Below are positions 41,297 through 53,035 of a stretch of 64,000 bases of DNA, in pieces (positions within the stretch are counted from its first letter, which is position 1; the number at the start of each line of letters is the position of its first letter). The translations under genes were made by a program, and so were the position numbers. Where the stretch lies: contig BPGU01000001.1 of the NCBI GenBank assembly GCA_026003195.1, forward strand, positions 1,225,398-1,289,397. The letters are read 5' to 3'. This stretch comes from Armatimonadota bacterium. GTDB lineage: Bacteria; Armatimonadota; HRBIN16. The notes below the pieces were generated by a model. It made no database searches. It was given only the letters and a program-made list of their open reading frames with translations, and was not told the origin of the DNA.

Positions 41297-44206
41297 TCAA
41301 ATCATGTTCGGCAATGCTTCCACAAGGGTGATGACATCCTGCACTGATAGCGAACGTCCCCATCCTACCTGCTGTTGATAAGCTTCCTTGCCCATCCGTC
41401 GGCGCAATATCCCTTCCGCTTCGCCAGGAGGGGAAGCAGAGGAAGGAAGATGTAGCCTTCGCCTCAGAGATTGGCATGCTCCTGCCAGCTGTGCTCCTGC
41501 CTCGTCCCACTCGATGCGCACGCAGAGCTCGGTGAGGGTTTCCATAACCTCCAGAATCCCGGGTAAATCTTCTATGCGGGCGCGTATCTGCAGAGCGCGG
41601 AGAACCTGCCGGGCGCATTCCATATTGTCTCCCCCGCGAAGGGCAATCTTCGCCATGTTATGATGCACGAACCCCAGCGCGTAATGGTCAGCACTCCGCT
41701 GCGCGAGATGAAGGCAGGAGTGGTACACTGTTCTGGCGCGATCGATGTGCCCGGCTCGTTGTGCCAGATTGCCCACCCACATTGTGGCGTAAGTGAGCGC
41801 CTCTATACTACCTGCTTCCTCCGCCAGCATCGCGCTTTGTGTATAGACTGCTTCTGCCTGCTCGTATCTTCCCATCCGGTAAAAAACATTGCCCAGCCAT
41901 ACTGTGGCGAAAGCCTGTCCTTCCCGGTCATTCTGCCGTTCGAAACGGCGCAGGCTCTGACGCAACAGATGCTCTGCCACAGCAAGGTCTCTCTGCATCC
42001 ATGCCAGCGCGCCTGCACCCATCGCCACCCATGCCCACCAGTGCGAGGTCTCCTCGTCGGCTGCCCCTCCGTAATCCGCCACCAACCTGTCCAGCACTGC
42101 CCTGCCCTCTACGAGAATACCGTGCATCATCCAGAACACCCACAAGTTTGCCGCCATCTGCAGTGCATCAGGGGTATTGCGCACAGTATCGCGCCGTAGA
42201 GCATAATCCATCGCTGCCATCATATTCTGATGCTCACGTGCCACCATCTTCGACCACTGCGTCGCCTGTGCACCTGTTCTGTTCCGATGGGCAAGATCAG
42301 CACGATGGCTGAAAAACAAAAGGTGCCGAGCAAAGGCATCGTCGGCGTACGGCTCCCTGTGCAGATTCTGAAGGGCGTATTGCCGCACCAACTCCAGCAT
42401 CTGATAACGTGCTTCCCCATCTTGCTCCTCCATCCGCACCAGCGAGCATTCGATAAGCGCGTCCAGAGTATCCAGCACAGCGACGTCCGGCACGGTATCC
42501 TCGCTAGGCACCTGCCCCGTCAGCACACAGCCGGCACCCGCGATGTTCCACCCTCCCGCAAATACCGACAGCATGTTGAACGCCTTTTTCAGATCCGGCG
42601 ACAGCAGGGCGTAGCTCCACTCCAGCGAGGCGTGCAGGGAGCGATGACGCTCTGGCTGCAGGGAGTTGGGCGCGCTCAATGTGTGTGCCTGTTGCTGGAT
42701 AGTGTGCAGTATTTGAGATGGCGAGAGCACCCGAGCTCTGGAGGCGGCGAGGATGAGAGCCAGGGGCACTCCTTCTAGATATTCGCAAATCTTTGCGACA
42801 GCAAGCGCGTTTTCTGGCGTCAGATCGAACCCCGCACGCACTGTCTGAGCGTGTTGGACGAAAAGCTGCACGCTAGGGCAACTTTGCAACAGTGCCAGAG
42901 TACTACTGTCCGGCAAGCTGTCTGCTTCTCGCCATCCCTCTGTCGAGGGTGTTTGCAGCGGACACAGGCGCAGTATCTGTTCACCGGACAAACCCGTCCT
43001 CCGACGCGAAGTCACCAGTACCTGGAATAACGGCAGACGCTGCAACAGGTCAGAGACCACCCGCACCCCACCGGAGTCCACCTGCTCGAAATTGTCCAGC
43101 ACCAGCAGCGAGGGATAACCTCCCAGTACCTGCACTACCGCATCCATCAGCCGCTCAGCAGGCATAACGGCACCGGTGGCGTGCAGGATGCGCTCCAGCA
43201 AAGCATGTCCTTCTCTCACGTCTGCCACATCCACGAACCAGGCGCGTTGTCCTTTACTGACCAGCCTTCGGGCAACCTCTATCGCCAGGCTGGTCTTGCC
43301 AATACCTCCTTCTCCGGTGATGGTGACAAGGCGCGTGGCGTTTGTGTCGAGCATTTGCATCAGACGCGCCGTTTCGCGTTCGCGCCCGAACAGCCCGGTT
43401 GGTGCAGGCGGCAGTCTGCTGTCACACAGCTGCTGGGCAGCTTGCTGCGTGTATCGGACATCATCTTGCGCCTGTATCGCCAGCTGCTGTATGGCACGGG
43501 AGGGGGTGGTATCCAGCTGCTCGCGGAGGAGATGCTCCCACTCGCGGTATACCCGCTTCGCCTCTGCCGGATAGCCTCTCGCCAGATAGATACGCATCAG
43601 CGCCAGGCGAGGCTCCTCGCGCAAGGGATCACAGGCAATACCCCGGAGGGCATACTCCTGAGCGTCCTCACGTTGTCCTCGTTCCTCCAGCAGGCGGATG
43701 AGTTCATCTAACGCGCGAAAATGACGCTCCGCTGTCTGCTGCTGCAGCTGTAACACCCAATCCTCGTAGAATCCTTTCAGTGGTACGTCGGTGTAGTAAT
43801 CTATGGCACGCTGCAGGTAGGCGATACGTTCCGGGAGGTCTGAGAGGCGGCGTGCCAGACGGAGGTTGTGCTCCATATCGTTCAGGTCGGTCGTCACAGC
43901 GTCGGAGCGCAAGCCAATGCCGAAATTGTCCGAGTAGAACACTGCGTCAGCAGGTATGCCCCCCTGCTCTATCTGTTTGCGCAGAGAGCTCAGCGCAACA
44001 CGCAGGCTGGTGCGTCCCACATCGATATCGCTATCCTCCCACAGGAGGTCGATGAGAGCCTCACGAGGGTGCGTCTGGCGCAGATGCGAGGCAAGGTATG
44101 CGATCAGCAGTGCAGTCTTCTGGGTACGAAAGTGCGTGATGGTCTGCGTCGGCGTGATCAGGCGCAAACCGCCGAAGAGTTCCACACGACATAAGGAAGC
44201 TGCCAA
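41297..44206 (-). CDS. SARP-type regulator: winged helix, BTAD, NB-ARC-like ATPase and TPRs
   Basis: 969 aa. Residues about 1-95 are an OmpR-like winged helix (VELFGGLRL, FRTQKTALLIAYLASH, LIDLLWEDSD). The bacterial transcriptional activation domain follows (about 100-250; RYIAYL-type helices, REEPRLALMRIYLARG). An AAA/NB-ARC ATPase has Walker A GEGGIGKTSLAIE (about 295) and Walker B SLLVLDNFEQ. The last third is TPR-like (GQAFATVWLGNVFYRMGRYEQA and related). This is AfsR-like architecture: a signal-responsive activator of nearby genes. Its neighbours on both sides are HAF-repeat secreted proteins. Confidence 0.9.
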   Translation of the reverse strand: MAASLCRVELFGGLRLITPTQTITHFRTQKTALLIAYLASHLRQTHPREALIDLLWEDSDIDVGRTSLRVALSSLRKQIEQGGIPADAVFYSDNFGIGLRSDAVTTDLNDMEHNLRLARRLSDLPERIAYLQRAIDYYTDVPLKGFYEDWVLQLQQQTAERHFRALDELIRLLEERGQREDAQEYALRGIACDPLREEPRLALMRIYLARGYPAEAKRVYREWEHLLREQLDTTPSRAIQQLAIQAQDDVRYTQQAAQQLCDSRLPPAPTGLFGRERETARLMQMLDTNATRLVTITGEGGIGKTSLAIEVARRLVSKGQRAWFVDVADVREGHALLERILHATGAVMPAERLMDAVVQVLGGYPSLLVLDNFEQVDSGGVRVVSDLLQRLPLFQVLVTSRRRTGLSGEQILRLCPLQTPSTEGWREADSLPDSSTLALLQSCPSVQLFVQHAQTVRAGFDLTPENALAVAKICEYLEGVPLALILAASRARVLSPSQILHTIQQQAHTLSAPNSLQPERHRSLHASLEWSYALLSPDLKKAFNMLSVFAGGWNIAGAGCVLTGQVPSEDTVPDVAVLDTLDALIECSLVRMEEQDGEARYQMLELVRQYALQNLHREPYADDAFARHLLFFSHRADLAHRNRTGAQATQWSKMVAREHQNMMAAMDYALRRDTVRNTPDALQMAANLWVFWMMHGILVEGRAVLDRLVADYGGAADEETSHWWAWVAMGAGALAWMQRDLAVAEHLLRQSLRRFERQNDREGQAFATVWLGNVFYRMGRYEQAEAVYTQSAMLAEEAGSIEALTYATMWVGNLAQRAGHIDRARTVYHSCLHLAQRSADHYALGFVHHNMAKIALRGGDNMECARQVLRALQIRARIEDLPGILEVMETLTELCVRIEWDEAGAQLAGACQSLRRRLHLPSSASPPGEAEGILRRRMGKEAYQQQVGWGRSLSVQDVITLVEALPNMI

Positions 44207-44246: not shown

Positions 44247-45764
44247 CTACGGCTCATCCCCTATCGCCCCGAAGTTCCTCAAGAGGATGCCAAAGTCGAA
44301 CAGGGTTACCTCCGCATCACCGTCTAAATCCGCCCCGGCGTTCCAGTTGCCGTCACCGGGAAGAGAGCCAAACGCTGCGACCAGCTGTCCGAAATCGAAC
44401 AGCGTCACCTCGTTGTCGCCATCCACATCACCATTGGTAAGCGCAGCATGGACACCATTCACATCTCTATCCGCAACGGTGACTCCACGTATCACCACAC
44501 GCAACCAGTGACTCGCTTTGAAACCTACATCGTAAGAGCCCGAAGACACATTCTGCAGAGTATAGTTCCCTCTCGCGTCGACGAAGATATCTTCCATACG
44601 CACTGCGCTACCGTTCTGACGCCATTCCACGGTGATGGGCACCTGCGTGCTGTCGCCATCGTAGTCGCGCAGCTGCAGATTGCCGCGCACTTGAAATACG
44701 CCCGCCTGCGTGTCCAGCAAGAACGCCTCGGTACGCCGGGCAGTGGCATGGATACCATATCCCACAATAAAACGTCCATCCGGCGAGATTGCCCGGGCAC
44801 CCTCCAGGATGGAACCATCGGTCAACAGGTTGGAATAGGTCACATTCAGGTCTTCGGTACCTCCGCCGGTCCGCCAGCGAAGCGCACGACCTCCTGCGCT
44901 GAGCAAGGAGGTTTCACCCACCGCTGTTTGACCGTCACCAGAGACATCGTATGCCCAGACATAATAACTGTTGGGCAACATCCCCAGTTCCCGTATCTCA
45001 TCCGTCTCCACCCAGCGGAAAGCGCGGAAAAGGGCGGCATCGTTATAAGACCAGCCGACCACAACCGTTCCATCGCTGGAGATGCCCGTCGCCATGCTGT
45101 GAGAACCGCCCAGCGTGTCGAGGTCTGTCGCCAGCCCGCTCCCGTCCCATCGACACGCATGATACTCTCCATCGGGTGTGTAAGCCCATCCCGTCACCAT
45201 GACACCATCAGCAGAGACGTCGCGCGCACCGCTCCATGAGCCTCCAAGCGTGCCCATATCTCGCATTCCTCCCTGCTGGCTCCATCGGAACGCATGCCCC
45301 ACGCCAGCAGCAGTAGCGGACTCCCCTACGATCACTCCGCCATCTGCAGAAACACCCCACGCGCGGCTCCAGCTTCCTCCAAGCGTACCGATTGCTCGCA
45401 TCCCTTCTGCCAACGTCCAGCGAAAGGCATAGGACGTGCCAGACGGACTCACGCTTTCACCCACTACTACCTTTCCATCAGCGGAAATAGCGAGTGCTTT
45501 GCTCTCGTTGCTATAAGAGGGCAATACACCGAGGTCCTGCATCCCCGCTGTGGGCGTCCAGAGAAAGGCGTGTTGCTTGCCGGATACCAGCTTCGCCCAT
45601 CCTACCACCGAACGACCATCCGCAGAGACACCGGTCGCGATGCTTTCGGAGCCACCAAGCGTCCCCAGCCAGATCAGCGATTGGGCTGAGCTTAATGTAC
45701 ACAAAGAGGACACGAAATACACTCCCCACAGGAGTGCAAACAAAAATCTTTTTAGAACCATCAC
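44247..45764 (-). CDS. Secreted HAF-repeat protein with dockerin-like C terminus
   Basis: 505 aa with a signal peptide (FALLWGVYFVSSLCTLSSAQ). At least six clear HAF repeats follow, each with LGTLGG(S) and SADG..VVG segments (GVSADGRSVVGWA, AISADGKVVVGES and so on, about residues 30-330). The C terminus has a beta domain (QVRGNLQLRDYDGDS) and a pair of Ca-binding dockerin type I-like motifs: GDVDGDNEVTLFDFGQL and ADLDGDAEVTLFDFGIL. No cohesin gene is in the window. Only a terminator separates it from thrS upstream. Confidence 0.87.
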   Translation of the reverse strand: MMVLKRFLFALLWGVYFVSSLCTLSSAQSLIWLGTLGGSESIATGVSADGRSVVGWAKLVSGKQHAFLWTPTAGMQDLGVLPSYSNESKALAISADGKVVVGESVSPSGTSYAFRWTLAEGMRAIGTLGGSWSRAWGVSADGGVIVGESATAAGVGHAFRWSQQGGMRDMGTLGGSWSGARDVSADGVMVTGWAYTPDGEYHACRWDGSGLATDLDTLGGSHSMATGISSDGTVVVGWSYNDAALFRAFRWVETDEIRELGMLPNSYYVWAYDVSGDGQTAVGETSLLSAGGRALRWRTGGGTEDLNVTYSNLLTDGSILEGARAISPDGRFIVGYGIHATARRTEAFLLDTQAGVFQVRGNLQLRDYDGDSTQVPITVEWRQNGSAVRMEDIFVDARGNYTLQNVSSGSYDVGFKASHWLRVVIRGVTVADRDVNGVHAALTNGDVDGDNEVTLFDFGQLVAAFGSLPGDGNWNAGADLDGDAEVTLFDFGILLRNFGAIGDEP

Positions 45765-47882: not shown

Positions 47883-48449
47883 TTGATAGACACCAGCGAT
47901 TTCCGCAACGGTCTACATATTATCGTGGATGGCGACATCTACACTATCATCGAGTTCATGCACGTCAAACCGGGCAAAGGTGGAGCCTTTGTACGCACCA
48001 AGCTGAAAAACGTGCGTACGGGCGCCGTGCTGGACAAGACCTTCCGCGCTGGCGAACGCATGGAACAGGCTTTCCTTGAGCGAAAGCCAATGCAGTTCCT
48101 GTATAACCAGGACGATGAGTACTACCTCATGGACATGGATACGTACGACCAGATTATGGTGCGTCGCGAGCAGTTCGGCGAAGGCATCAAGTACCTGAAG
48201 GAAAACATGGAAGTGACCGTGCTGATGCACGAAGGGCGGGTGGTCGGCGTAGAAATGCCCTGGTTTGTGGAACTGCAGGTAGTAGAAACCGACCCCGGCG
48301 TGCGCGGCGACACCGCATCTGGGGGTTCCAAGCCCGCCACGCTGGAGACCGGAGCCGTTGTGCGCGTGCCCTTCCACATCAACGTGGGCGACATTATCAA
48401 GGTAGACACGCGCACGGATCAGTACCTGGAGCGAGTGAAGACGCAGTAG
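47883..48449 (+). CDS. efp: Elongation factor P
   Basis: 188 aa from a TTG start preceded by AAGGAGG. Domains I-III are complete: ISTSDF-like N terminus ([10 protein letters not shown]), the loop VKPGKGGAF with Lys32 at the modifiable tip, [20 protein letters not shown] and the C-terminal [17 protein letters not shown] with YLERV end. EF-P rescues ribosomes stalled on polyproline stretches. No epmA/epmB or earP gene was seen, so the Lys modification route is unknown. First gene of the operon leading to accB, accC and nusB. Confidence 0.96.
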
Positions 48450-48473: not shown

Positions 48474-49589
48474 ATGGGACGCCCAGGACGTTCCTTTCAT
48501 GCCCGTAAAGCAGCAGAGCTCATGGAAGACCTGCTGCAGCTTGTTGGTATTGTTGCAGCGGTAGGTGCAGTGCTGGCAATCGCCTATCTGCTCTGGGGCG
48601 TTTTCTCAGGTATGGCAACATCATGGGCAACCTTGCCCACCACGGATCGCCTGCGTGTGGAGCAGAACATCCACCTTGCCGGACGCGCACTACTGGCAAC
48701 TACAGCCGTTGCTGCAGCCAGCTTCACCTTGCTTTATATCCGGGAAACGACCATCGGGTATCTTTTTCTGCTGCTCGCTGCTCTACTGGCTCTGGGAGTC
48801 CCCCTGGGCATCATACACCTCGCCCCCCAGACCGGACGAGGTCCCACTCTTTTGCCCCCGATAGTAGTCTCCTTCCAGCAGGCAGGCATATTGTGCGTGG
48901 TGCCCGGCATCATCTTCGCTGTACTGGACGTGTGGGTGCGGGTAACATCTGGCTACTTCCGCGAGTTGTTCAATCGCGCGAATCTGCAGTACGGTGCGAA
49001 CGTCACCAGAGAAAGCCAGCCTACCAACCGGTTTCTCGGCTTATGCTGGCAGTTACCCTTCTGTCGTCCGAGCATCCGCAAGAGCTGTCCTATTTACCAT
49101 GCGCGACGTGCCTGCTGGCGTGAAGGCGTAGGTTGTATGTGCGAGGAACGTGTGATCCTGCAGGCGCTGGAGGGCAAAGGCGCGCCCAGCAGCGACCCCC
49201 GCGAAAACGTGCGTTTTATCCCCTATAACAGGCATCTCTCTCAAGAAGAAAAGCGGGAACGCTGCCGCAACTGCATTATCTATAACTACCGGCAACAGCA
49301 GAAATATCAGATCATTGCTCCCATCGTGATAGTGGCTGCCGTTGCCATCGTCGTCCACTACGCACAACAGACACAGCAACTCCTCTTCCAGGCGTTACGT
49401 GCGGTGGATAACTTCGTTGCACGGTTTGCGTTTTTGCCCTCTTCCGGCGAGGTGCAATACATGAAGATCGAGTCGCTGGCGCGTTCTTCCGAGTTCGTCA
49501 CGTGGATGATGATAGGCATTATTGCGGTCATCTTTGTGAGCTACGTGTTGCGTGTCGTAGAATATTTCATTTTCCAGTTGAAGGTGTAG
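48474..49589 (+). CDS. Membrane protein with a Cys-rich central domain
   Basis: 371 aa, GGGGGCGAG upstream of the ATG. Four N-terminal hydrophobic segments (about residues 15-155), then a hydrophilic domain (about 180-280) with eight Cys: CWQLPFC, KSCP, RACW, GCMCEE and RCRNC, then two more helices (about 285-305 and 345-365). The Cys spacing could bind zinc or an iron-sulfur cluster. I know no matching family. It lies between efp and the accB-like gene with short gaps (24 and 3 bp), so co-expression is likely. Cytoplasmic or periplasmic placement of the Cys domain is undetermined. Confidence 0.7.
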   Translation: MGRPGRSFHARKAAELMEDLLQLVGIVAAVGAVLAIAYLLWGVFSGMATSWATLPTTDRLRVEQNIHLAGRALLATTAVAAASFTLLYIRETTIGYLFLLLAALLALGVPLGIIHLAPQTGRGPTLLPPIVVSFQQAGILCVVPGIIFAVLDVWVRVTSGYFRELFNRANLQYGANVTRESQPTNRFLGLCWQLPFCRPSIRKSCPIYHARRACWREGVGCMCEERVILQALEGKGAPSSDPRENVRFIPYNRHLSQEEKRERCRNCIIYNYRQQQKYQIIAPIVIVAAVAIVVHYAQQTQQLLFQALRAVDNFVARFAFLPSSGEVQYMKIESLARSSEFVTWMMIGIIAVIFVSYVLRVVEYFIFQLKV

Positions 49590-49592
49590 CCG

Positions 49593-50021
49593 ATGGTACA
49601 CACTGAGGTAGAGCGGATCGAGAGGTTGCTGGAACTGCTCCACCAGAGCGACGCCAGCGAGCTGGAGGTAGAAACAAACGGTTGGCGATTACGTGCAAGG
49701 CGACAGGTGGTTCTTGCTGCTCCGACAAGCCCTGAACCCGAGACGGAGCAAGTGCAACCACCCAGCGAGCCTCCATCTGTGTGGATACGCTCCCCGCTGG
49801 TGGGCTTTTTCCAGCCGCGCCCCAAACCGCTGCAGGTAGGCGACTCGGTGAAGAAGGAGGAGGTCGTATGCCTGATTCAGGCGATGGGGTTGATGAACGA
49901 GGTACGAAGCCCCGCAAATGGTCGTGTCGTGGAAGTGCTGGTAGAAGAGGGTGTGGCAGTGGAATATGGACAGCCTCTGTACCGCATCGTGGAGGAGAGC
50001 GATGATGAAGCGAGCCCGTGA
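49593..50021 (+). CDS. AccB-like biotin carboxyl carrier protein lacking the biotinylated lysine
   Basis: 142 aa. The layout matches BCCP: an N-terminal helix (VERIERLLELLHQS), a short beta strand, a Pro-rich linker (about 45-60) and a biotinyl/lipoyl beta-barrel with IRSPLVGFF, LQVGDSVKKEEVVCLI, GRVVEVLVEEGVAVEYGQPL. In place of the usual A-M-K-M motif it has QAMGLMNEV: the biotin-accepting Lys is Gly99 (codon GGG at 49887-49889). Such a protein cannot carry biotin. It resembles plant BADC proteins, which are non-biotinylated BCCP relatives that down-regulate acetyl-CoA carboxylase. It is two genes upstream of accC. Confidence 0.85.
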   Translation: MVHTEVERIERLLELLHQSDASELEVETNGWRLRARRQVVLAAPTSPEPETEQVQPPSEPPSVWIRSPLVGFFQPRPKPLQVGDSVKKEEVVCLIQAMGLMNEVRSPANGRVVEVLVEEGVAVEYGQPLYRIVEESDDEASP

Positions 50022-50364
50022 GGCATGGAGCCTGGTAGAGATACTGGTGGTGCTTGTGCTGCTGCTCATACTGGCAATCTGGCTGTTGCCCAAATACACC
50101 GGCAGGGGCACGGAACCATCAGGACAGCCACGCAAAACCCCTGAGAACGCGGCTCTCGCTGTGCAGTGCCGCAATAACCTCCAGCAGATTCGCCTCTCGC
50201 TGCGCATGTCCCGCCCAACGGGAGAGGAACCTCTCCCCGCTTCCTTGCAGGACCTGCGGCTACCCGCAGAGATGCTGTATTGCCCTGTCAGTAAACAGCC
50301 CTACTGGTACGACCCCCAAACCGGGCGCGTGCAGTGCCTTACTCCGTCGCATGAGGGATTTTAG
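50002..50364 (+). CDS. Pseudopilin-like protein between accB and accC
   Basis: 120 aa. ATG at 50002 (or 50005) overlaps the accB end by about 20 bases; GGAGGAG lies before it. The N terminus [20 protein letters not shown] has the charged leader and hydrophobic helix of type IV pilins, with Glu at mature position 5, but the usual Gly-Phe cleavage pair is Ala-Trp. The rest has [12 protein letters not shown] and [19 protein letters not shown], as in small pseudopilins. Its place inside a fatty-acid operon is unusual; it may simply be co-transcribed. The function is not clear. Confidence 0.65.
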
Positions 50365-50366
50365 AC

Positions 50367-51722
50367 ATGTTCCAGAAGGTGTTGATAGCAAACAGAGGCG
50401 AGATCGCTTTGCGCATCATCCGCGCGTGCAAGGAGCTCGGCATAGCCACTGTCGCTGTGTACTCCGAAGCGGACGCAGACAGCCTGCACGTACAGGCGGC
50501 AGATGAGGCGGTATGCATTGGTCCCGGGCCGGGCAAAGATAGTTACCTGAACATCCCCAACGTGATTATGGCTGCCATCATCACGGGCGCAGAAGCCATT
50601 CACCCCGGCTACGGCTACCTTTCTGAACGCGCCAGCTTCGCCGAGGCATGTGAAGCGAGTGGGCTGGTGTTTATCGGTCCGCCACCCTCCGCTATCGAGA
50701 AAATGGGCGATAAAGCGGTGGCTCGCGAAATCGTGCGCCACGCAAAGGTGCCGGTGGTCCCCGGCACACACGGGGCGGTGCGCAGTGAGCAGGAAGCGAT
50801 CAAACAGGCGCAGCGCATCGGCTACCCAGTGCTGGTGAAAGCAGTGGCTGGTGGTGGAGGCAAAGGCATCCGCCTGGCTGAGAATCCCGAAGAGTTGTCG
50901 CGCGTGCTGCAGCTGGCGCAAAACGAGGCGATGGCAGCTTTTGGTTCACCAGAGGTGTACGTGGAAAAATTCATCCCTGACCCTCGCCACGTCGAGGTGC
51001 AGGTGCTCGCAGACTCCTACGGCAACGTCATCCACCTGGGTGAACGCGAGTGTTCTATCCAGACCGCCAGGCGACAAAAAATGGTGGAAGAAGCCCCGGC
51101 TTCTGTGGTCGCTCCCGCCCTGCGCCAGAAAATGGGCGAGGCAGCGGTACGCGCAGCGAAAGCGGTTGGCTATGTCAATGCGGGTACGGTAGAATTCTTA
51201 CTGGACAACAAAGGCAACTTCTATTTCATCGAGATGAACACGCGCATCCAGGTGGAACATCCTGTCACCGAGCAGGTCACAGGGGTGGACATCGTGCGCG
51301 AGCAGATACGTATCGCTGCCAAGGAGAGACTGCATCTGTCCCAGCGCGACGTGCAGTGGCGTGGGCACTCCATCGAATGCCGCCTCACCGCCGAGGACCC
51401 GGATAACGATTTTGCACCCAGCGTGGGGAAAATCACGCACCTGGTGCTGCCGGGAGGTCCCGGTGTGCGCGTCGATACCCACCTGTATCCGGGCTACGTG
51501 ATACCCCCCTACTACGATTCCCTGCTCGCCAAAATTATCGTGTGGGCGGAAGATAGACCCGCTGCGATAGCACGCATGAGGCGAGCACTGGAAGAGACAC
51601 GTGTCGAAGGCGTGAAAACCAATCTACACTTCTTGAAACGCATTATCGACCACCCGGAATACCAGAAGGGAAATGTGTCCACACAATTTTTGCGCCGCTA
51701 TCTGCGAAACGGTACGGAGTGA
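50367..51722 (+). CDS. accC: Biotin carboxylase subunit of acetyl-CoA carboxylase
   Basis: 451 aa, normal length. It carboxylates biotin on BCCP with ATP and bicarbonate, the first step of malonyl-CoA synthesis. Motifs: [41 protein letters not shown] (ATP loop), [35 protein letters not shown] (catalytic) and a C-terminal RM.RALEE block. The start follows the pseudopilin stop by two bases. No accA or accD in the window. Confidence 0.96.
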
Positions 51723-51734
51723 GGGGCAGCGAGT

Positions 51735-52178
51735 ATGAGCAGTTCCACGCTCCGAAAGCACTCTGCGGGCACTCGACGCATGGCGAGGGAGCTGGCGCTG
51801 CGCCTGCTCTATCAGGTGGATATTGCGCAGATGCCTCTGGACGAGTGCTTCGCTTTTGCCGTCGAACACATGCCTATCGAGGAGCCGGGGCAGCAATTCG
51901 CCTACGAACTCGCTTCCGGTACGCTGCAGAACCTGCAACGCATAGACTCCATCATCGCTCGCTTTGCTATCGGCTGGCCTCCCGACCGACAACCCGCCCC
52001 CGACCGCAATGTACTGCGTTTGGCAATCTACGAGCTGCTCTACCACCCCGAAACGCCCCCCAGTGTGGTGATCAGCGAGGCGGTAGAGCTGGCAAAGAAA
52101 TATAACTCTGACGAATCCGGCAAGTTCGTCAATGGTGTGCTGGCAAGTGTGTTCAAACATCTGGAGGAGTATCGGTGA
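51735..52178 (+). CDS. nusB: Transcription antitermination factor NusB
   Basis: 147 aa. The all-helical NusB fold is indicated by RRMARELALRLLYQVDIA, a central FAYELASGTLQN, ARFAIGWPPDR, VLRLAIYELLYHPETPP and SVVISEAVELAKKY, SGKFVNGVLASV. It binds boxA RNA with NusE during rRNA transcription. Located directly before folD, with GTGA overlap. Confidence 0.95.
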   Translation: MSSSTLRKHSAGTRRMARELALRLLYQVDIAQMPLDECFAFAVEHMPIEEPGQQFAYELASGTLQNLQRIDSIIARFAIGWPPDRQPAPDRNVLRLAIYELLYHPETPPSVVISEAVELAKKYNSDESGKFVNGVLASVFKHLEEYR

Positions 52179-53035
52179 GCGCAACCCTGTTAGACGGCGC
52201 AGCAACTGCTGCGCAAATTCGCGAAGAGCTGAAACCGCGCGTGCAACGGCTGCGCGAAGCAGGCATCGTGCCCAAACTGAGCGTGGTCATCATCGGCGAT
52301 GACCCCGCCTCCCATACCTACGTGCGCATGAAAGCCAAAGCCTGCCGCAGCGTGGGCATCGAGTCCGAAACCTTCGCCCTGCCGCAAGAGACTACGCAAG
52401 AAGAGGCGGAGGCTCTCATTGCACGACTGAATGCCGATGAAAGCGTGCATGGCATCCTGATACAGCACCCCGTGCCCAAGCATCTCCACGAAATCCGTTT
52501 GCTCAGTCATCTGTCACCCGACAAAGATGTGGATGGAATCTCACCCGCCTCGCTGGGCGCACTGGTAGCCGGTGTAGCCAGTTTCATTTCGTGTACACCC
52601 CTCGGCATCGTAGAGCTGCTAGACCGCTACCAGATCCCCATCGAAGGGCAACGCGCAGTGGTGGTAGGACGCAGCATTATCCTGGGCAAACCGCTGGCTC
52701 TACTGCTTCTACAGCGTAACGCCACCGTCACCGTGTGCCACACCCGCACACGAGACCTGCCCTCCATCACCCGCGAGGCGGATATTCTGGTCGCCGCGTG
52801 TGGCAGGGCAGAGTTGATCACAGGGGATATGATACGCCCGGGTGCGGTAGTGGTGGATGCCGGTTACAACCGCGTGGAGGGACGTAGCGGCGACGTGGGC
52901 GATGTGCACTTCGAATCGGCATCACAGGTTGCCTCGTACATCACACCGGTGCCGGGCGGGGTGGGCCCCATGACTATCGCCATGTTGCTCTCTAACACTG
53001 TGCGTGCAGCAGAAATGCAACTGGAGGCGCAGTAA
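52175..53035 (+). CDS. folD: Bifunctional methylenetetrahydrofolate dehydrogenase/cyclohydrolase
   Basis: 286 aa from a GTG start overlapping the nusB stop. FolD motifs: SHTYVRMKAKACRSVGIES, LIQHPVPKHL, KDVDGISPASLGALVAG, CTPLGIVELL and VVGRSIILGKPLALLLL. It interconverts methylene-, methenyl- and formyl-tetrahydrofolate with NADP+. Complete C-terminal GVGPMTIAMLLSNTV. Confidence 0.95.
   Translation: MSATLLDGAATAAQIREELKPRVQRLREAGIVPKLSVVIIGDDPASHTYVRMKAKACRSVGIESETFALPQETTQEEAEALIARLNADESVHGILIQHPVPKHLHEIRLLSHLSPDKDVDGISPASLGALVAGVASFISCTPLGIVELLDRYQIPIEGQRAVVVGRSIILGKPLALLLLQRNATVTVCHTRTRDLPSITREADILVAACGRAELITGDMIRPGAVVVDAGYNRVEGRSGDVGDVHFESASQVASYITPVPGGVGPMTIAMLLSNTVRAAEMQLEAQ

Follow-up and report, generated by a model that had tools for sequence, protein, structure and literature searches.

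Acetyl-CoA carboxylase (ACC) stands at the start of fatty-acid synthesis, and to our knowledge its control is poorly understood in most bacteria. The window analyzed here, a 64,000-nucleotide stretch of an Armatimonadota genome, carries in an acc operon a complete open reading frame (ORF) for an AccB-like protein of 142 residues, in which glycine occupies position 99, the position of the biotinylated lysine (motif QAMGLMNEV). The locus raises the question of what an AccB-like protein without its biotin acceptor does beside accC, and which protein in the same genome carries biotin.

The Gly99 protein

The substitution had been claimed in an earlier note on this DNA, and it was borne out by the ORF itself, the GGG codon, the profile matches to Pfam and TIGR00531 and the presence of accC from position 50367. 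The protein (MVHTEVERIERLLELLHQSD...CLIQAMGLMNEVRSP...VEYGQPLYRI), termed Gly99 protein below, has the following features.

49593 to 50021, forward strand: AccB-like protein with an N-terminal helix and beta-hairpin (residues about 2-36), a linker (about 38-62) and a biotinyl-type barrel (about 63-134)
49812 to 49826 (approximate to a codon), forward strand: shortened thumb loop PRPKP, five residues as opposed to ten in Escherichia coli AccB and in the lysine-bearing AccB
49887 to 49889, forward strand: codon for residue 99, the biotin-acceptor position, GGG for glycine (GGG or GGA in all eight orthologues of the genus)

The Pfam Biotin_lipoyl profile matched the Gly99 protein with 54 bits (cut-off 22.1). 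The NCBIfam BCCP profile TIGR00531 also matched (E=1.2e-22), with 81.1 bits below the curated cut-off of 115.2, which is not discriminating here because lysine-bearing copies in related genomes score under it too. In a profile search, the best relative in the PDB was 4hr7_B, the AccB chain of the E. coli AccB-AccC complex, aligned over residues 3-133, so that the Gly99 protein has the N-terminal domain as well as the barrel. The AlphaFold2 model, of low confidence (mean pLDDT 57.8), contained a helix (2-18), a hairpin (23-27/32-36) and the barrel; the barrel matched 1bdo, 9a87 and 4hr7, and the Foldseek matches included Arabidopsis BCCP1. By descent, the protein belongs to AccB/BCCP on account of its two-domain architecture, whole-length homology and synteny with accC. 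The two hallmarks of a functional carrier, the acceptor lysine in (E)AMK(M) and a thumb loop of the E. coli type, are missing.

The glycine is neither an artifact nor a sign of decay. All eight orthologues in the genus encode it, seven with GGG and one with GGA, although their synonymous distances are close to 1 or greater, and we rejected a sequencing or assembly error on this ground. Pairwise dN/dS within the genus ranged from 0.07 to 0.34, mostly 0.1-0.2, as compared with 0.07-0.21 for the lysine-bearing paralogue, values that are rough because most synonymous distances exceed 1. The gene for the Gly99 protein is under purifying selection. These values together with its wide retention led us to reject a pseudogene, in agreement with the earlier note, which had judged the complete and tightly spaced gene to be no simple relic.

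The operon

The gene lies in a tightly spaced block of seven genes on one strand.

47883 to 48449, forward strand: efp, elongation factor P, named by sequence and synteny
48474 to 49589, forward strand: membrane protein of 371 residues, no known family, kept in the operon
49593 to 50021, forward strand: the Gly99 protein
50005 to 50364, forward strand: small type IV pilin-like protein, assigned by sequence, between the AccB-like gene and accC
50367 to 51722, forward strand: accC, biotin carboxylase (TIGR00514, 702 bits, over the cut-off), the sole copy in the genome
51735 to 52178, forward strand: nusB-like gene, 3' of accC, named by sequence and position
52175 to 53035, forward strand: folD-like gene, 3' of the nusB-like gene, named by sequence and position

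The AccB-like gene starts 3 nt past the upstream ORF and shares about 17-20 nt with the pilin-like ORF, and only 2 nt separate the end of the latter from the start of accC. The grouping of efp, accB and accC occurs in other phyla too. The 371-residue membrane protein, with a cysteine-rich middle (CWQLPFCRPSIRKSCPIYHARRACWREGVGCMCEE), is 79-86% identical within the genus and syntenic over much of the phylum; it matched no Pfam family, and its AlphaFold2 model was uninformative (pLDDT 41). The pilin-like protein, also without a Pfam match, is present in most operons of the phylum, with no obvious reason for its place in an acc operon. Upstream in the window, we observed a large exported-looking protein (44247-45764) with HAF-type repeats (GTLGGS...A.GVSADG..VVG) and C-terminal dockerin-like GDVDGDNEVTLFDFG repeats, and on the reverse strand (41297-44206) a BTAD-type transcriptional activator that carries an ATPase domain as well as TPR-like repeats, as judged by sequence only.

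A second, lysine-bearing AccB in the genome

The earlier note had offered, as an alternative, that a true accB exists elsewhere and that the copy in the operon is structural. A genome search indeed found a second BCCP, this one lysine-bearing, an AccB with the motif EAMKVFNEV, at C1:1113013-1113444, about 160 kb from the Gly99 gene and unlinked to it. It is surrounded by htrA-, hom- and rib-like genes, and inspection of this neighborhood revealed no carboxylase. At E<=1e-120 the genome has a single accC; its carboxyltransferase genes form one adjacent pair, taken to be accD/accA, and birA is likewise present once. The other biotin/lipoyl domains of the genome have lipoyl motifs (DKA, DKV) or are HlyD-like. 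Taken together, these counts leave the unlinked AccB as the only likely biotin carrier. The carrier of the single ACC is therefore most likely the unlinked lysine-bearing AccB, working with the AccC encoded beside the Gly99 protein. We considered a second ACC with a different accC and rejected it for the host genome, which has one accC and one accD/accA pair. We likewise rejected that the lysine-bearing AccB is part of another carboxylase, as no Carboxyl_trans gene was found besides the accD/accA pair, and none nearby.

Two classes of AccB across the phylum

AccB loci and their neighborhoods were collected from 61 genomes of 27 families, many of them fragmented drafts. Copies in an accC operon, or grouping with those in the tree, were classed as accC-linked; nearly all of them hold the operon position, and one locus without detected neighbors (L110, genome G034) was counted here by its tree position. 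By residue counts that depend on the alignment, the acceptor lysine was present in the accC-linked copy of 17 of 56 genomes, as opposed to 59 of 59 for the unlinked copy (Fisher p 1.3e-17, uncorrected for relatedness). The other accC-linked copies had glycine (23), arginine (8), threonine (3), histidine (2), aspartate, serine or asparagine (one each). By family, the accC-linked copy never had lysine in 16, always in eight and was mixed in three. Because the acceptor residue differs between families, glycine itself is not the functional feature; because lysine is kept in some genomes, biotinylation of the accC-linked copy may persist there. The possibility that relatives all carry lysine at this position, which the earlier note had named as speaking against its claim, is ruled out by these counts and by the uniform glycine of the genus.

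In a maximum-likelihood tree calculated with the biotin column excluded, accC-linked and unlinked copies fell on opposite sides of one branch (99/92). The lysine trait required at least 11 changes on this tree, all within the accC-linked clade; a larger quick tree also gave 11, or 14 if only losses were allowed.

The two classes also differ in the thumb, which structural models place at the BirA contact (PMC10863985) and to which earlier work, as cited in PMC11926652, ties dimerization. All unlinked copies have the full thumb of ten residues, like E. coli AccB, whereas it was reduced to 2-6 residues in 26 of 36 lysine-less and in 10 of 14 lysine-bearing accC-linked copies. Since the thumb is short even in copies that retain lysine, the sequences suggest that the role of the accC-linked copy may have shifted earlier than the loss of lysine and independently of it. 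The N-terminal helix and hairpin remain conserved, as does the C-terminal stretch VEYGQPL, which like VG is nearly invariant in the accC-linked clade. The phylum-wide split, the second lysine-bearing AccB and the pilin-like ORF before accC all go beyond the earlier note.

Outside the phylum, lysine was found in 57 of the 58 AccB proteins examined and the full thumb in 56; most of them adjoin accC, often with efp near. From this distribution, the position beside accC would seem to be ancestral, and hence the copy that changed would be the one in the ancestral position. In a three-way tree with other phyla, the accC-linked clade stayed intact (support 87), with no firm placement as sister to the unlinked copies. 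The sole lysine-less outsider is a divergent extra AccB-like protein, unlinked to accC (L231:3343-3774, genome G326), which has asparagine at the biotin site (KAMNLENHK), adjoins a methionine aminopeptidase-like gene and is apparently an independent lysine-less AccB. A genome of another phylum (G266) encodes two AccB proteins (L230 and L229), one beside efp and accC with the odd motif EAMKIIKDV and the other unlinked and canonical; this pair may show the same split at its beginning. A plasmid collection gave 22 distant matches, mostly from Lactobacillales, known by their labels as accB or biotin/lipoyl protein.

Possible roles of the Gly99 protein

We consider it rather probable that the Gly99 protein, similar to plant BADC and separately evolved, binds AccC as a non-catalytic subunit and shapes ACC assembly or activity. 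Its conserved N-terminal helix and hairpin would bind AccC, and the protein would take up, or compete for, the sites of the biotinylated unlinked AccB, without carrying carboxybiotin on the usual residue. As it cannot hold carboxybiotin there, we propose that it would govern how the single ACC is assembled, what architecture it takes or how active it is. Such a subunit could act as a structural glue or as a brake, and we lean to the former. The conserved N-terminal domain, the match to 4hr7_B across both domains and a dN/dS like that of the lysine-bearing paralogue speak for a subunit, although the conservation of the N-terminal domain may instead reflect another partner or a role in transcription. 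Extended to the phylum, this proposal would mean a lasting division of labor in AccB: the unlinked copy would serve as the biotinylated carrier, and the copy beside accC, mostly without a thumb and no longer in need of biotin, as an architectural subunit, a separately evolved counterpart of BADC that is required for, or sets, ACC assembly and activity. We hold this broader claim to be evenly poised.

The same features could be read differently. Excess AccB lowers accBC expression in E. coli, where the operon is autoregulated via the N-terminal domain of AccB (PMC3896788), and a protein that senses free AccC with this domain and feeds back on the operon rather than on the enzyme would account for the conserved N-terminal domain and for the place of the Gly99 gene ahead of accC in the acc pair. 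The barrel is also strongly constrained (VEYGQPL, VG), however, which would be unnecessary in a regulator acting through its N terminus alone and makes autoregulation unlikely in our view. We regard as similarly doubtful that the Gly99 protein is a competitive brake, filling the AccB sites on AccC and directly inhibiting malonyl-CoA synthesis, a mode of action originally suggested for BADC, in a dose set by co-expression with AccC. It retains the barrel fold without the carrier residue, and with one encoded in a block with accC and the other elsewhere, biotin-less and biotinylated AccB can be made in varying proportions. Yet it would be odd to co-express an inhibitor constantly with its target, and newer work in plants leans to an assembly role (PMC11926652).

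Two further explanations appear very improbable. If the unlinked copy had taken over after a duplication, the operon copy might be a drifting relic, as the variable biotin site (G, R, T, H, D, S, N) and the often long end branches in the clade would allow; but dN/dS of 0.07-0.34 at high synonymous distance largely refutes this, and relics would not persist so long as an ORF retained in 56 genomes of 27 families with conserved positions outside the biotin site. A role outside ACC, perhaps together with the operon's pilin-like and membrane proteins, finds some basis in the conservation of these neighbors alongside the gene over much of the phylum. However, accC is the other near-constant neighbor, and accB-accC pairs with efp near occur in other phyla, where AccB bears lysine.

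Comparison with known systems

The non-catalytic, AccC-binding subunit that we favor has its closest parallel in plants. The BADC (biotin attachment domain-containing) proteins are non-biotinylated and have been described as ACC inhibitors or as assembly glue, with inhibition now disputed in favor of glue (PMC11926652). The earlier note had drawn this analogy, suggesting a bacterial equivalent encoded next to accC. Like Arabidopsis BADC1-3, the Gly99 protein is a BCCP paralogue without the biotinylation motif, and its genome also encodes a BC partner and a BCCP that could be biotinylated. One accC, one lysine-bearing and one lysine-less AccB, the retained N-terminal domain, purifying selection and the recurrent loss of lysine, restricted to the accC-linked copy, support the analogy and equally the note's alternative of a true accB elsewhere and a structural role for this one. 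In a comparison with BADC by description only, the Gly99 gene differs in being bacterial, lying in an accC operon and having arisen inside a bacterial phylum where the accC-linked copy repeatedly lost its lysine. The tree places it in the accC-linked clade of its own phylum, as a result of which convergence with plant BADC is expected.

Among bacterial proteins, E. coli AccB (1bdo, 4hr7), four copies of which assemble with an AccC dimer (PMC3896788), shares the N-terminal domain, linker, biotinyl-type barrel and accC neighborhood; the Gly99 protein differs from it in glycine for the acceptor lysine, the shortened thumb and a TIGR00531 score below the cut-off. YqhY of Bacillus subtilis, encoded in an accBC-yqhY operon and tied genetically to the activity of ACC (PMC5437119), is likewise a non-catalytic protein co-encoded with accBC, although it is of the Asp23 family and lies 3' of accC, whereas the Gly99 protein is an AccB paralogue. 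In Chloroflexus aurantiacus BC1, a BCCP beta-hairpin before the core links BC dimers to form tetramers and increases the activity of the biotin carboxylase (PMC11077971); unlike the Gly99 protein, BC1 is a fused BC-BCCP biotinylated on Lys553. Our search of the open-access literature found no report of a bacterial BADC-like protein or of a lysine-less AccB. A biotin-less BCCP paralogue is known from plants, and the bacterial, operon-linked and repeatedly derived form looks new.

For annotation, these observations are a warning that an accB next to accC is not necessarily the carrier. The phylum offers a natural series, with lysine kept, lysine lost and thumb lost, in which one can ask whether such subunits assemble, cap or inhibit the enzyme. 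The sequence evidence suggests that bacteria evolved a non-catalytic subunit of fatty-acid synthesis resembling plant BADC, and if a biotin-less AccB is fixed beside accC across the phylum, non-catalytic BCCP subunits would be no invention of plants.
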